From positions 1 through 43,324 of the forward strand of contig JACCLF010000051.1 of NCBI GenBank assembly GCA_013425405.1: a DNA stretch of 43,324 bases. Direction: 5' to 3'. This DNA comes from Microcaldota archaeon. GTDB taxonomy: Archaea; Micrarchaeota; Micrarchaeia; Burarchaeales; Fermentimicrarchaeaceae. Made by a program: the position numbers and the translations under genes. The notes beneath the pieces were generated by a model, which saw only the letters and a list, made by a program, of their open reading frames with translations, had not been told where the DNA came from and did not search any database. Of the stretch, positions 33,566-40,925 are shown piece by piece; within the stretch, counting starts at the first letter, position 1, and each line of letters begins with the position of its first letter.

Positions 33566-33693
33566 GGGGCCGTGTGCTAGCCTGGCATGCTTCCGGCTTC
33601 AGAGCAAAACTCTGCCGGAATGGGGTGCCGGCGACCCGAGGAGCTTCCTGAGTAACATCAGGTTGAATGGGAATTCAAATCTCGGCGGCCCCA
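33566..33693 (+). tRNA. tRNA-Pro(GGG) with two putative introns: about 22 nt in the anticodon loop (about 33600-33621) and about 33 nt at the T-stem/T-loop junction (about 33641-33673)
   Basis: Acceptor GGGGCCG/CGGCCCC + A73; anticodon stem CCGGC/GCCGG around TT-[22 nt]-GGGGT; T-stem CCGAG/CTCGG with loop TTCAAAT after removing 33 nt. 128 - 22 - 33 = 73 nt, a normal type I length. Intron hairpins CAGAG-caaaa-CTCTG and CCTGA-gtaaca-TCAGG. Confidence 0.92.
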
Positions 33694-33713
33694 TTTTGTT
33701 AAGGGGGGTTTGT

Positions 33714-34331
33714 ATGAGTGAACTTTTGATTCAGCAGGAAAAGTACCTTGAGGCGGGCATACACATAGGTACGAAGATAAAAACGCCCGATATGAACCAG
33801 TTCATATACAAGGCAAGGCAGGACAGGCTGTATGTGCTGGACTTGAAGAAAGTGGATGAGAGGATAAGGGTTGCTGCAAAGTTCATTTCTCACTACAAGC
33901 CCGAGGAAGTTCTCATTGTGGCCTCAAGGCTGTATGCGGGCAGCTCCGCGAAGAAGTTCTGCGAGGCTGTCGGGTGCAGGGTTGTTGAGGGCAGGTTCGT
34001 CCCTGGAATGCTGACAAACCCGGCCAGGGAGGATTTCTCGGAGCCCAGGCTGCTTTTCGTATCAGACCCCAAGAATGAGAGGCAGGCAATAAAGGAGGCA
34101 AACGCCATGGGCATACCGATAATTGCGTTATGCGACACGGATAACTCCACAAAGTTTGTTGACTGGATTATTCCGTGCAACAACAAGGGCAGAAAATCCC
34201 TGGCGCTCATCTTCTATCTTCTTGCTAGAGAGATAGCGAGGGCGAAGGGAGAAATTCCAGAAGGAGAGGAGTTCAAGCTCAAGCCAGAGGACTTTGAAGG
34301 GATGAGCGAGGAGGAAGAAATCTCAGCTTGA
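33714..34331 (+). CDS. rps2: 30S ribosomal protein uS2
   Basis: EKYLEAGIHIGTKIKTPDMNQFIYKARQDRLYVLDLKKVDERI; RFVPGMLTNP; NNKGRKSLALIFYLLAREI; the track start at 33663 overlaps tRNA-Pro. Confidence 0.96.
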   Translation: MSELLIQQEKYLEAGIHIGTKIKTPDMNQFIYKARQDRLYVLDLKKVDERIRVAAKFISHYKPEEVLIVASRLYAGSSAKKFCEAVGCRVVEGRFVPGMLTNPAREDFSEPRLLFVSDPKNERQAIKEANAMGIPIIALCDTDNSTKFVDWIIPCNNKGRKSLALIFYLLAREIARAKGEIPEGEEFKLKPEDFEGMSEEEEISA

Positions 34332-35573
34332 GCCCTCGATGCATTTGCTCTTTACGAACGGGTCAGCTATGTTTTGGCACAGCGTAGAGTTCTTGCTGCT
34401 TATAGCAATCTTCTGGTAGCATTCATCCTTCCAGTTTGTGTAGTTTATGTCTGCGCACATGGAAGGGGCAAAGCTCTGGCCGTATATTACTGAAGAGTAG
34501 CATGTGTTCCTCCTGTAGTTATTCTGCATAGGAGAGCAGTAAGACGGATTGCTGCTGGTCTTTGCAACAGTGAGATAGCAGAGATCTCCTTTCATCGAAT
34601 CTGTTATTTTGCCGCAGGGTGATGGGTCAGAAGTGGCATTGGCAACCTTCATGTAGCAGTCCTCCCGGTCATTTATGCATTCGTAGCAAATCATGCGGGA
34701 GCATATTGATGCATCCTTGCTTTTCATTGCTATGTCGGTAAAGCAGGCGTCCTGGTAGAGGTGGGTGCTTATGTTCAGGCATAGGTTTGGCGCGGTGTGC
34801 TCACTTGCGAAGACCTTAAAGCAGGAATCCTTCTGGAGATAGTCGGAAAGCTCGTTGCAACGAGCGTAGTCCCCTGTCAGTCTAGTTATGCATAGGTAGC
34901 GCGTATAGCTGAATGATATGTTTTCGCATAGGGAGGAATTAGAGGTCAGGTTTGCGAAATATTGGAAGCAGCTGTCTCTACCCCCAGAGCTTGAGAGCAA
35001 GCCGCATATCTTGTAATTGCTCTTGGCCTTTGCAAAATCGAAGTAGCAGTCATCCCAAAAAGAGTGATTTGTTATCTCATTGCATATCGAGTAGTTGTTC
35101 TTGCTCTTAGCCATGCACAGATTATAATCATAATTGGCAGACATGCCCTCGCAGAGCACGCTCTCGTCGCCAAGCTCTAGACGGCACTTCTTTCTCAGAG
35201 AGTCATTCTCGATTTTGTTGCATGTCATAATGCCGGCCATCGGTGCGATTGTGTGGTAACAGTCATCCCTCGTGTAGCCGTTCGCTATTCTCGCGCACAG
35301 GGCGGGATCTGTCAGGTTCACTGCGAACCTCAGGTTGCAGTTGTCCCTCAGCACGTCAGAGAATATGAATGAGCATGCGATGAGGTTGTTTTTTTCTATC
35401 GCATCATTGTAGTAGCATCTATCCCCATCATCTCGGTTGACAATCTGCGAGCACTGCAACTCAACTACTGGCGGTGGATTGACCGTTTCATTCTTCTGCT
35501 CTGGCGGATTGTAGGAAACACATCCAAGGAGCAGCAATAATAACAGTATGGATAGGGCAATATTAAATCTCAT
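34323..35573 (-). CDS. Putative lipoprotein with about 15 tandem Cx11C repeats
   Basis: Lipobox-like LLLLLGC at N-terminus; regular units such as CNEITNHSFWDDC, CENISFSYTRYLC, CADINYTNWKDEC, CQNIADPFVKSKC. Confidence 0.88.
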   Translation of the reverse strand: MRFNIALSILLLLLLLGCVSYNPPEQKNETVNPPPVVELQCSQIVNRDDGDRCYYNDAIEKNNLIACSFIFSDVLRDNCNLRFAVNLTDPALCARIANGYTRDDCYHTIAPMAGIMTCNKIENDSLRKKCRLELGDESVLCEGMSANYDYNLCMAKSKNNYSICNEITNHSFWDDCYFDFAKAKSNYKICGLLSSSGGRDSCFQYFANLTSNSSLCENISFSYTRYLCITRLTGDYARCNELSDYLQKDSCFKVFASEHTAPNLCLNISTHLYQDACFTDIAMKSKDASICSRMICYECINDREDCYMKVANATSDPSPCGKITDSMKGDLCYLTVAKTSSNPSYCSPMQNNYRRNTCYSSVIYGQSFAPSMCADINYTNWKDECYQKIAISSKNSTLCQNIADPFVKSKCIEGSS

Positions 35574-35733: not shown

Positions 35734-35806
35734 TAGCCCCGGTCGGATTCGAACCGACGTGGGTGGGTCCAAAGCCCACCATCCTTGGCCACTAGATGAC
35801 GGGGCT
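35734..35806 (-). tRNA. tRNA-Gln(TTG), no intron
   Basis: Minus strand AGCCCCG/CGGGGCT + A73; anticodon arm GTGGG-CTTTGGA-CCCAC; T-arm GTCGG-TTCGAAT-CCGAC; 73 nt. Confidence 0.95.
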
Positions 35807-35831: not shown

Positions 35832-37268
35832 TTAATATGCTTTACCCACGTACACAACCTGCTCTGCCTCCTTGCCGCATCTTATGCACTTTCCTTTCGG
35901 CTTCTCCTCCTTTCCAAGCGGAGTTCCTCTTATATCCCCACCAACTGTTTCGGACTTGATGAAATCCGCGCACTCGACAGAGCCGCACCACTCAACCTTA
36001 ACCAGCCCGCCATTCTCGTTTAAGATTTTCTTGAGTTGATTCATATCACTGGCTTCAAGAATGTGCTCCCTGAAGAATTTCTCAGCTCTTTTGACGAGGT
36101 TGCTCTGTATGTCCTCAGACATCTTGAGGACTTTTTCAACAAGCTCGCTCTCCTTGACGGTTATCTTCTCTCCAGTGTCCCTTCCCACTAGGATGAGCTG
36201 CTTTTTCTCAATGTCCTTGGGTCCTATCTCAATTCTTATGGGAACTCCCTTGAGCTCCCAGTAATTATACTTCCAGCCTGGAGTGTGCTCGGGCCTGTCG
36301 TCAACCTTCGCGCTTATGCACTTGCTTTCAAGAAGCTTCTTTACGGAGTTGGCCTTCTCAGTAATCTTCTCATCTGAGCCTTTGAAGTATATTGGGACTA
36401 TTACAACTAATAGGGGCGCAACGGAGGGAGGCATCACCAACCCTTTGTCATCACCATGGATTGCCACCAATGCGCCAAAAATCCTCCACACGGCAGGTCC
36501 GTAGCAGGTCTGCCAGCCGTACTGCGCCTTGCCATCCTTGTCCACAAACTTTATATTGAACGCCTTTGAGAAGTTCTGCCCCAGGAAATGGGTTGAAGGC
36601 AGCTGTATCACCTTCCCGTCCGGCATTATGCTGTCAGCTGCGTAGGTGCTCACGGCTCCTTTGAATTTGTCGTGCTCAGGCCTCTTGAAAAAGATGAATG
36701 GGATTGCGGTTTCTTTGAGAAGCTTCCCAGTTGTGTCCATGTCCTCCTCAACCTGCTTCAGGGCCTCCTTCTCCGTCTCGAAAACATCGTGCGCCTCTGT
36801 CCAGTAGAACTCCCTGCCCCTTATGAAAGGCCTTGTTGACTTTCCTTCAAACCTCCACACCTGGCAGCTCTGGTATATTTTGTAGGGCAGGTCCCTCCAA
36901 GTCCTTATCCACATGGAGAACATGGAGTACATTGCAGTTTCTGAAGTTGGCCTCAGGGCGAGCCTCTCTGAGAACTTTTCATTGCTGCTCCCGCCCTCTG
37001 TCACCCAGAAGACATCTGCTGAGAAGCCCTCCGCGTGCTCTGCCTCCTTCTTGAAGTACGACTCAGGGACAAGGGCTGGAAACCACGCCGGCTCATGCCC
37101 CTTCCTCTCAAGCTCATCCTCAAGTATGGAGTACATTCTCTTCATGGTTCTGACAGACCACGGCATATGGACCAGAAAGCCCTTGACATTGTACCGTATG
37201 TCCGCTAGCTCTGCCTCCTGGATGACCTCAGTATACCACTCGGAGAAGTTGCTTTTCGGGTTTTTCAT
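35832..37268 (-). CDS. proS: Prolyl-tRNA synthetase, archaeal/eukaryotic type
   Basis: FSEWYTEVIQEAELADIRYNVKGFLVHMPW; LRPTSETAMYSMFSMWIRTWRDLPYKIYQSCQVWRFE.KSTRPFIRGREFYWTEAHDVFET. Confidence 0.97.
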   Translation of the reverse strand: MKNPKSNFSEWYTEVIQEAELADIRYNVKGFLVHMPWSVRTMKRMYSILEDELERKGHEPAWFPALVPESYFKKEAEHAEGFSADVFWVTEGGSSNEKFSERLALRPTSETAMYSMFSMWIRTWRDLPYKIYQSCQVWRFEGKSTRPFIRGREFYWTEAHDVFETEKEALKQVEEDMDTTGKLLKETAIPFIFFKRPEHDKFKGAVSTYAADSIMPDGKVIQLPSTHFLGQNFSKAFNIKFVDKDGKAQYGWQTCYGPAVWRIFGALVAIHGDDKGLVMPPSVAPLLVVIVPIYFKGSDEKITEKANSVKKLLESKCISAKVDDRPEHTPGWKYNYWELKGVPIRIEIGPKDIEKKQLILVGRDTGEKITVKESELVEKVLKMSEDIQSNLVKRAEKFFREHILEASDMNQLKKILNENGGLVKVEWCGSVECADFIKSETVGGDIRGTPLGKEEKPKGKCIRCGKEAEQVVYVGKAY

Positions 37269-37359: not shown

Positions 37360-37962
37360 ATGCCAGTGTTCATAGACCCGCGGATATGCGACAAACAGAT
37401 GATATGCGACCTGATGAAAGTGTGCCCCATGAGTGCTATCTACCAGGATGAGAAGGAGGGGAATGTTGAGATTGACAGCACAAAATGCAACGAGTGCCTG
37501 CTCTGCGTGAAAGCGTGCCCCTACCTTGCGGTGAAACTTGCAAAGGATACGGATGAGCTTGGCGAGTTAAGGGTGAAGGCTGGAAGGATAAAGTTCAACA
37601 GGGATGCACACCTCAGTAGAATCTATGGAGCCAAGCCCAGCAGGATTGGGAAGGCTGAGCTTAACGATTCTAATTTCCAGAAGAAGGTTAGTTCAAAGAC
37701 GCCAACTCTGGTGAGCTTCTGGGGTGCTCACAGTGAGGTCATAGCCCCCTCATTGAAGTGGATTGGCAGGAAGTACAGAGGAAAGTTGAAGGTTGCCCAC
37801 ATAAAAGTTGCAGAGAACCCTGAGAGTCGCAAGAAGTATGCGATAACCACAACTCCAACACTGATTCTTTTTAGAAGCGGGAAGCAGATTGGAAGGCTTG
37901 AAGGGGTACGGCACAGGGAGACGCTGCGCGTGTGGGTTGAAATGAAGCTCAAGGCCCGTTAA
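37360..37962 (+). CDS. 4Fe-4S ferredoxin domain fused to thioredoxin-fold domain lacking CxxC
   Basis: CNECLLCVKACPYLAVKL cluster motif; then PTLVSFWGAHSEVIAPSLKWIGRKYRGKLKVAHIKVAENPESRKKYAITTTPTLILFRSGKQIGRLEGV (thioredoxin-like with HSEV at the CGPC position). Confidence 0.85.
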   Translation: MPVFIDPRICDKQMICDLMKVCPMSAIYQDEKEGNVEIDSTKCNECLLCVKACPYLAVKLAKDTDELGELRVKAGRIKFNRDAHLSRIYGAKPSRIGKAELNDSNFQKKVSSKTPTLVSFWGAHSEVIAPSLKWIGRKYRGKLKVAHIKVAENPESRKKYAITTTPTLILFRSGKQIGRLEGVRHRETLRVWVEMKLKAR

Positions 37963-37982: not shown

Positions 37983-40925
37983 CTATGCAATTTTTGTTAA
38001 TGTTATGTCTACTCCCTGCTTCTTGAGATTCATCATGTTTCCGCTGAGCTGGTAACGGTACTGGGAGGTTGCTCCGGCATAGCTCAATGAGAGTATATCG
38101 CCCTGGACGGTGTACGTCCCGTAGTAGTAATTTGGACCGTCAAGCAGGGTGTAATAGCCACCTGCATCAAGCGTGAGGAGAGTCTGTGTGTAGGAATTGT
38201 ACCACTGTCCCACAAGCTGGTTGGGCGGAGCCGGGGGTTGGACTGGCTGCTGCTGGGGCTGGCTTGGTGCTGTTCCGGGTGCAACTGCAGGAGCAGGCTC
38301 ATTTGATGCTTCTGGAATCTTCTCGCCAGGCCTGTTGAGAACTATTGCATTGTTTGAGCTGTCGTATAGAACGAGCTTGTGAATTCCCCTCAAGTAGTAG
38401 AATGTTGTTGAATAATCAGGCGAAGGGGAGACTGCAGCGAGAGTCAGATAGGTCTTGTTTACCGAATATCTCCCGCTTATTGCATGGGCGCCAATGTTCC
38501 ATGTGAAAGTTCCGTCATTATTGAAGGTGAATTTAATCTGGTTGGAAGCGCTCTCCCAACTACCCCTCATTCCCTCGCTGTCAACCTGCCTTGCATCCAA
38601 ATCCTGTCCGTTGTCACCGGTGTTTGCATAGAGGTCTTTGTAAACTGAAGTTGAAGGAGGAGTGCTCCCAGAGGTTACACAGTATATTGGGTCTGTTCCT
38701 GCAAGCTCGAATAACCACATTGCATCATCACTCACTCTTGAAGCTATGAAATGCAGAGTTTCAAACCTGTCTTTCATGTAAATGCTCATGTGCGGTATCG
38801 CCTTACGGGAATAGGTAAGTTGGCAGCTAGAAACACCCAACCCGTCGCTCATTATGCATTTACCTCCGGAGAAGTTGAAATCCGCCCTATATTGCACGGT
38901 GATTCCCTGCTCTATCTGGCCGCATTGCCAGTCCTTGCTCAAATCATCTTGCGTGAGAGGCGTCAGAGTTGGCTGCTGTCCAACTTTCAGCGTTCCGACA
39001 ACATAGCTGTTCTGGTTTACCAAGTCTGTGAGCATGTCTGCAACCATGTACGTTCCAGGCTCAAGCAGGTGCCACTCCAGCTCAAACCCGGTGCCTGTCT
39101 TGTAGGTAAGCGGCTGGCGGGACTCCTTCGCAAGTCCTGACTGGGTGAGTTTGTAGACATATGGAGTGAAAGTATCTCCATCCTGCAGGTAAGGCAGATA
39201 ACCAATCACCTGATGCCCATCAGGCCCCTGCACGGTTATCTGGACATTTGCGATGCTTCCATTTGACTCGTAGAAATACAGCTGCGCGTCGGCATTTTCA
39301 TTTCCTCTTTGGTAGATACCTCCCACAACAAAAAAGTCTTCCGCAGGCCATCTCTTGTCAACAGTTACCATTTCGCTGGTGGTTCCATCGCTAAGGAACA
39401 TCTCAACCGTTGAGCTTCTCCCAATTCCCTTGCTCAACCCATCCGAGATTCCATAAACCGTTTTTCCATTTGCTAGAGTAGTCATCGCCCTCTGGCTTAT
39501 GATGCGCGCAAGCTTCCACTCTCCATTTTCATAGTAGAACTGGAGCCACTGGTTCTTCACAATGTTGGAGCCGAACATTCTGTAGGAGAATTTTATTGGT
39601 CTTACAAGAGAAGCAGTTGGGGAAACTTCAAAATCCGATATGACGGGCTTTGTTGAGCTTAGGTTCTCCTTGGAGTAATACTCCGCTAGAAAATCTCTCC
39701 ATGGCTGCTGGTTGTAGGCGGTTGTCTGCGGGTAGCTGTCTGCGTTTATCTTCGCGTATATCCATCTAGAAGGCTGGAAATAGTAGGAAACACCATAGGA
39801 CCTTGAGTGCTTTTGGTGGCTGTATTCTGCAACGAGGGTATTGTTTATGGCACTCTGCAGCACAGCTGCTTTCTCTCCAAGGCTGGCATCATTGAATGAA
39901 TAGGCAATTCCGTTCGATGCAAAATCATAGAGGTCGCCAAAGGAGAATATCATCTCTTCATCACTGCCCAGGGGGTAATGGTCTGCATACTGGTGCATCT
40001 CCGCAACATCTTTCCACCCTCCATTTTTCACATGGGCGGTAAGTGCCTGCGCAAAAGAATCAAAAGCCTGCTTGAGCTGCGGGAATTTTGAAAGGTCATA
40101 GGCGCTCATTGTTGTGGCATATTCCTTGTCCTTGTAGAATTCCCTGAATTTCTCAACTTCCATGGCTGCAAGCTGGCGCGGACTCATTCCAGGGTTTGCA
40201 GTAAGACTTCCAATCACCGTTGTATAATCATAGCTGTAGCCTGGGACGCTCTCCTCGGATGCAACCATGTAATCCGCATAGGGATGGGTATCAAGCATCA
40301 CATCGTACTGGCCCATGAGGCACATGTCAAAAACAACCACGTCTATCTTTCTCCCGAGCTTCTGGTTTATTCTCGTGAACGCCTGGCGCATCTTTCCAAG
40401 GCTCATGCTCGTGTTATGGACGTCGTCCTGCAGCATTCCCGTCCACCCGCCCCCGTGGTTCCATACAACTAGCACATATTTCTTTGCGGGGTATTTGTCA
40501 ACCGCCCAGGAAACAAAATTGTAAAGCGAATCAGGGCTAGCCATGTCGGTTTTTCCAAGGTCCTCCAGAATTGGTGAGGTCGAATTCTGCCCGTTGCCGC
40601 TTCCTACAAGAAACCTCCTCGCACCGGTCCAGCCGCCCTCACCTGCGTAGAAACCCCCGCGGGACATCTGGACTACAATGTTAACCTTGCCTGTGGAGCC
40701 TCCTCCTCTCTCCATCTCAAGAAAATCCGAAACTGCATCCTGCTCTATGTTGTTGCTCCCGTCCATATAAACCATATAAGTCCATTCGGACTGGGTTGAG
40801 AATATGTTTCCAATTCCGCCAGTCTCGTTTGAGGAAACCAGTTTCATGAGGTCGTTATAGCTCAATCCACAGCATCCGCTGAGAAATAACAGCAATAGCA
40901 ACACCGGAATAATGTATTTCATCAC
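37983..40925 (-). CDS. Secreted lipoprotein protease of clostripain (C11) family with C-terminal beta domains
   Basis: Lipobox LFLSGCCG; EWTYMVYMDGSNNIEQDAV; catalytic His in VVWNHGGGW and Cys in VVFDMCLMGQYDV; Pro-rich linker before a final GQWYNSYTQTLLTLDAGGYYTL domain. Confidence 0.9.
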   Translation of the reverse strand: MMKYIIPVLLLLLFLSGCCGLSYNDLMKLVSSNETGGIGNIFSTQSEWTYMVYMDGSNNIEQDAVSDFLEMERGGGSTGKVNIVVQMSRGGFYAGEGGWTGARRFLVGSGNGQNSTSPILEDLGKTDMASPDSLYNFVSWAVDKYPAKKYVLVVWNHGGGWTGMLQDDVHNTSMSLGKMRQAFTRINQKLGRKIDVVVFDMCLMGQYDVMLDTHPYADYMVASEESVPGYSYDYTTVIGSLTANPGMSPRQLAAMEVEKFREFYKDKEYATTMSAYDLSKFPQLKQAFDSFAQALTAHVKNGGWKDVAEMHQYADHYPLGSDEEMIFSFGDLYDFASNGIAYSFNDASLGEKAAVLQSAINNTLVAEYSHQKHSRSYGVSYYFQPSRWIYAKINADSYPQTTAYNQQPWRDFLAEYYSKENLSSTKPVISDFEVSPTASLVRPIKFSYRMFGSNIVKNQWLQFYYENGEWKLARIISQRAMTTLANGKTVYGISDGLSKGIGRSSTVEMFLSDGTTSEMVTVDKRWPAEDFFVVGGIYQRGNENADAQLYFYESNGSIANVQITVQGPDGHQVIGYLPYLQDGDTFTPYVYKLTQSGLAKESRQPLTYKTGTGFELEWHLLEPGTYMVADMLTDLVNQNSYVVGTLKVGQQPTLTPLTQDDLSKDWQCGQIEQGITVQYRADFNFSGGKCIMSDGLGVSSCQLTYSRKAIPHMSIYMKDRFETLHFIASRVSDDAMWLFELAGTDPIYCVTSGSTPPSTSVYKDLYANTGDNGQDLDARQVDSEGMRGSWESASNQIKFTFNNDGTFTWNIGAHAISGRYSVNKTYLTLAAVSPSPDYSTTFYYLRGIHKLVLYDSSNNAIVLNRPGEKIPEASNEPAPAVAPGTAPSQPQQQPVQPPAPPNQLVGQWYNSYTQTLLTLDAGGYYTLLDGPNYYYGTYTVQGDILSLSYAGATSQYRYQLSGNMMNLKKQGVDITLTKIA

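Follow-up and report, generated by a model that had tools for sequence, protein, structure and literature searches.

A repeat lipoprotein encoded tail-to-tail with rpsB

The sequence analysed here (the window) is a stretch of 43,324 nucleotides whose host assembly is a Micrarchaeon of the genus Ca. Fermentimicrarchaeum (Micrarchaeota). An ORF with an ATG start at 34323–35573 on the minus strand, coordinates that agree exactly with those in a preliminary description of this DNA, encodes a predicted lipoprotein of 416 amino acids with 15 cysteine-paired units. The gene is convergent to rpsB (33663–34331, plus strand; ribosomal protein S2, Pfam PF00318) and the 3' ends of the two overlap by 9 bp. 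Upstream is a proS-like prolyl-tRNA synthetase gene (35832–37268, minus strand; Pfam assignment), with a tRNA-Gln (35734–35806, minus strand) lying between it and the lipoprotein gene. Also encoded in the surrounding region are a fusion of a ferredoxin (4Fe-4S) domain and a thioredoxin domain (37360–37962, plus strand), which is kept near the locus within the genus, and a second lipoprotein of 980 amino acids (37983–40925, minus strand) that contains a Peptidase_C11 domain of the clostripain type and, in its C-terminal part, lipocalin-like stretches.

Direct reading of the sequence places a signal peptide and lipobox at residues 1–18 (MRFNIALSILLLLLLLGC; 35520–35573, minus strand); the lipobox itself, the presence of which had been described, is LLLLLLLGC (residues 10–18) and ends at C18. 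A Pro/Asn-rich linker follows (residues 19–40; 35454–35519, minus strand), which is modelled at low confidence (pLDDT < 50 for residues 17–36), and the remainder of the protein is taken up by the 15-unit array (residues 41–411; 34341–35453, minus strand). There are 33 cysteines, C18 and 32 in the mature part; the protein is Ser/Asn/Cys-rich in composition.

The cysteine array is non-random, old and fixed in register

The cysteine pairs are 41/53, 67/79, 93/105, 118/130, 141/153, 164/176, 190/202 and 216/228 in the first part of the protein and 239/251, 265/277, 291/306, 320/332, 346/358, 373/385 and 399/411 in the second. The preliminary description had counted about 15 tandem Cx11C repeats, one with two additional cysteines; there are indeed 15 pairs, 14 of them exactly Cx11C, and the exception is Cx14C in unit 11 (residues 291–306; 34656–34703, minus strand), where a 3-residue loop insertion carries an extra enclosed pair, C296-Y-E-C299 (CYEC). 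This CxxC was gained as a pair, is common to all five species of the genus examined and is genus-specific among the orthologues examined. Spacing between pairs is 10–14 residues (mostly 13), and the distance from one Cys1 to the next is 23–29 amino acids (mostly 26).

This array is far beyond chance. The Cx11C count of 14 compares with a mean of 2.4 and a maximum of 9 in 20,000 shuffles of the mature sequence, and a DNA scan for the codon pattern C-x11-C-x13-C-x11-C gave seven occurrences in the window against 0.06 expected, all within the lipoprotein gene. The unit consensus read from the window is N-P-S-L-C-x2-I-x-N-x3-R-D-x-C-Y-x2-[FI]-A. Identity between units outside the cysteines is only ~16%; the array is therefore old, and this same divergence rules out a recent tandem duplication at the DNA level. 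Units with the same index in different species are closer to one another than units with different indices (0.23 versus 0.12, across the class), and thus the register of the array is fixed. Searches of Pfam, NCBIfam, PHROGs and PDB sequences gave no credible family for the repeat protein; the earlier statement that no named family could be recognised holds for the Pfam, NCBIfam and PDB sequence libraries searched.

AlphaFold2, run on a 5-sequence alignment, predicted helices throughout, arranged as a hairpin solenoid (mean pLDDT 85.8, pTM 0.57), with each unit modelled as a ~6-residue helix carrying Cys1, a turn, and a ~15-residue helix carrying Cys2. The helical hairpins that had been anticipated were thus predicted, but three of the five models were poor (67, 57 and 55, as against 85.8 and 85.7 for the two good ones) and the isolated C-terminal 109 amino acids did not fold in a separate AlphaFold2 run (pLDDT 45.5); given these poor models and the unfolded C-terminal piece, we regard an all-helical hairpin solenoid as plausible and not as secure.

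Orthologues and paralogues among the Micrarchaeota

Close full-length orthologues (56–72% identity) are found in Ca. Fermentimicrarchaeum limneticum Sv326 and three Micrarchaeota MAGs; outside the genus, overall identity of orthologues falls to ~22–32%, and a contig scan with close patterns gave matches confined to the genus. Of 59 related genomes, 41 gave relatives in a protein search. A repeat-profile search had been proposed in the preliminary description; a profile built from 24 relatives and run within Micrarchaeota matched 127 of 146 genomes, 77 of 84 when only those of good quality are counted, paralogues being included in these figures. Among the sampled genomes, families f7 and f12 had no profile match at the threshold used, and f18 and f20 had no more than a weak one, if any. 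The lipoprotein gene is not an orphan and, from these profile matches, appears to be near phylum-wide in Micrarchaeota. Similar repeats may occur in other small-genome archaea. Plasmid and phage records held no match to the window protein or to a very regular relative, and a protein search of viral contigs found no relative; among the matches listed from a codon-spacing scan of viral contigs, every frame was either rich in Cys or of low complexity, and none showed the unit consensus.

The genomic setting is also retained. In 20 of the 24 loci fetched the lipoprotein gene is tail-to-tail with rpsB, separated by a gap of < 400 bp in 18 of the 20, and in loci of the same genus the two 3' ends overlap as in the window; of the four remaining loci, one is cut off where its contig stops and three are the f10, f14 and f11 cases. 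The proS-like gene likewise adjoins the lipoprotein gene in the genus, in the family and in one further locus (L070). The conserved adjacency to rpsB supports orthology and vertical descent of the lipoprotein gene.

The repeat module is reused across several paralogue families. Two further Cx11C-repeat lipoproteins of ~220 and 123 amino acids are encoded in the window's own genome (L120, G000:C24, and L121, G000:C14), and a second paralogue group comprises proteins of ~290–350 amino acids (L118, L125). In one protein (L116) the repeats are joined to a DUF3352-like region. A class-wide group of ~490 amino acids (L106, L108, L109) combines an N-terminal domain of no assigned family with about four Cx11C-like units and an eight-cysteine cluster at the end; the match of this group to TIGR04289 is above cut-off for L109 and below it for L106 and L108.

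Cysteine losses point to pairing within units

The cysteine framework makes up almost all of the sequence that is conserved across 47 aligned orthologues, most cysteine columns being kept in 46 or 47 of them, and the number of mature cysteines is even (26, 28, 30 or 32) in 46 of the 47. Clear losses are few and remove both cysteines of one Cx11C unit: 11 sequences, all from one lineage, lack pair 41/53, L012 lacks 67/79 and L028 lacks 141/153. In 39 sequences the stretch between C190 and C228 differs by 26 residues, spanning C202–C216; this amounts to a whole unit and fits intra- or inter-unit pairing alike. In relatives, spacings anywhere from x3 to x45 occur inside a unit while that between units stays near x13, a contrast compatible with a disulfide that links the two cysteines of a unit and closes off a loop of variable length. 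Taken with the cysteine losses, which as a pattern in aligned sequences point to intra-unit pairing, this suggests a stapled unit.

The machinery for forming such disulfides in the window's genus is puzzling. Genome searches did not find VKOR there; VKOR is present in nearly all sampled genomes of families f10 and f14 (e.g. G019 and G024, as against G000 of the window); in almost every other family it is either missing or falls below cut-off. DsbB candidates from the genus, which were short, scored below cut-off and contained stops, were discarded; weak DsbA-like and DsbD_TM/CcdA-like matches were obtained. The lack of VKOR or a convincing DsbB in the genus, together with the CxxC-like character of its genus-specific CYEC, would suit a protein with reduced thiols, in which the cysteine pairs bind metal or buffer redox changes instead of forming structural disulfides. 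We consider this very unlikely given the even cysteine number combined with pair-wise loss (paired loss by itself also fits two-cysteine metal sites), and because the window protein has no CxxCH and few histidines (1.0%).

Membrane anchor and predicted surface exposure

The lipobox [GAS]C is kept in 37 of the 47 orthologues, and in those inspected among the other 10 a plain hydrophobic N-terminus stands in its place; membrane tethering therefore seems to be conserved while the type of anchor varies. Of the 12 sequences tested, 10 were enriched in N-x-S/T sequons about twofold or more relative to shuffles, and all eight genomes tested have STT3 (STT3/AglB); the surface of the protein is probably N-glycosylated.

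The preliminary description had suggested a host-contact adhesin; in this reading the solenoid displayed by the cell would bind the surface of a partner archaeon. The membrane anchor, the sequons and the predicted extended solenoid are all consistent with this, as are the many extra repeat matches in some genomes (12 in G008 and 15 in G013). We nevertheless think this function unlikely, as a near-universal gene that is syntenic with rpsB and has a fixed unit register is unlike a lineage-specific contact factor.

A proteinaceous S-layer has been reported for a Micrarchaeon, in work cited in PMC8975820, and a widespread, exported and sequon-rich protein might cover the cell as a subunit of the S-layer or as a component associated with it. 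This too seems improbable: there is no family match, a membrane-anchored rod suggests a spacer and not a lattice, and in families f10 and f14, which belong to the same class, only a different repeat protein was seen. The latter, a paralogue, is shorter and TM-anchored, the loop of one of its units is expanded to ~40 residues or more, and in the two loci whose flanks were examined rpsB is not its neighbour.

A candidate class of disulfide-stapled solenoid

The reading that we favour, and consider reasonably probable, is that the lipoprotein is a vertically inherited, membrane-tethered and disulfide-stapled alpha-solenoid whose role is that of a general scaffold of the envelope or a platform for binding partners. 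The protein would be exported and tethered to the membrane with its ectodomain forming a rigid alpha-solenoid rod, as modelled, in which each ~26-amino-acid unit contributes two helices joined by a turn, the first short and holding Cys1, the second longer and holding Cys2. A Cys1–Cys2 disulfide within each unit would probably staple the hairpin, and the loop that it encloses would be where insertions and deletions are tolerated; the rod would be exposed at the surface and probably N-glycosylated. Vertical inheritance in Micrarchaeota beside rpsB makes a scaffold or binding role the most likely one, a role that we propose from this distribution. The stapled helical-hairpin solenoid of the preliminary description is thus supported by the predicted helices (with the reservations given above), the even cysteine numbers in 46 of 47 orthologues, the pair-wise losses, the anchors and the enriched sequons.

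We also put forward, tentatively and at somewhat less than an even chance, that cystine-stapled alpha-solenoids of this kind (~26 amino acids and one intra-hairpin disulfide per unit) may form an undescribed class that is an ancestral surface building block of Micrarchaeota, with the rpsB-linked lipoprotein as its core widespread member and the module reused by several paralogue families. Micrarchaeota have barely been brought into culture, and for that reason next to nothing is known of their surface proteins. A widespread, syntenic and family-less surface protein would give labelling, proteomics and structural work a well-defined target, would extend the repertoire of repeat proteins by a compact solenoid stapled with disulfides, and raises the question of how disulfides are formed in lineages where no VKOR or convincing DsbB was found.

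Comparison with known cysteine-rich and helical repeat proteins

The eight-cysteine-cluster proteins of TIGR04289/TIGR04292 resemble the window protein in being Cys-rich exported archaeal proteins; an NCBIfam profile search showed the 52-amino-acid eight-Cys domain TIGR04289 to be absent from it. CHCH twin Cx9C proteins (PF16860) are mitochondrial and, like the units proposed here, are built on a cysteine-paired helical hairpin, but with Cx9C spacing and two disulfides in a single hairpin; one of 24 orthologues gave a chance-level match to PF16860 (E = 0.46).

A closer likeness to consider is with Helicobacter HcpB and HcpC (Sel1-like repeats, PF08238), which are alpha/alpha solenoids stabilised by regular disulfides, each linking the last part of a repeat with the beginning of its successor (PMC3851747). 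The window protein could be a diverged Sel1-like/TPR protein of this type, and Foldseek matches to its model were mostly TPR and Sel1 alpha-solenoids; these were generic only: none reached E ≤ 0.001 against either PDB or the viral models, and TM-scores were at most 0.28. The repeat unit, mostly 26 amino acids, is outside the 34–38 amino acids of Sel1-like/TPR units and short of the 36–38 of HcpB/HcpC with their Sel1 consensus, and there was no match to PF08238 or the TPR clan for the window protein (E ≤ 10) or for 24 orthologues (E ≤ 1). Moreover, Hcp disulfides tether successive repeats, whereas cysteine losses among relatives of the window protein appear to follow intra-unit pairs. That the window protein is a diverged member of the Hcp type is thus highly improbable.

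The repeat region of H. pylori CagY likewise consists of tandem alpha-helical repeats outside the cytoplasm with regularly placed cysteines (PMC2581425). The CagY A motif is 38–39 amino acids, Lys/Glu-rich and encoded by recombining DNA repeats, in contrast to the diverged, Ser/Asn/Cys-rich units of the window protein, which have a fixed register and no Pfam match. We treat both Hcp and CagY as structural analogies only.
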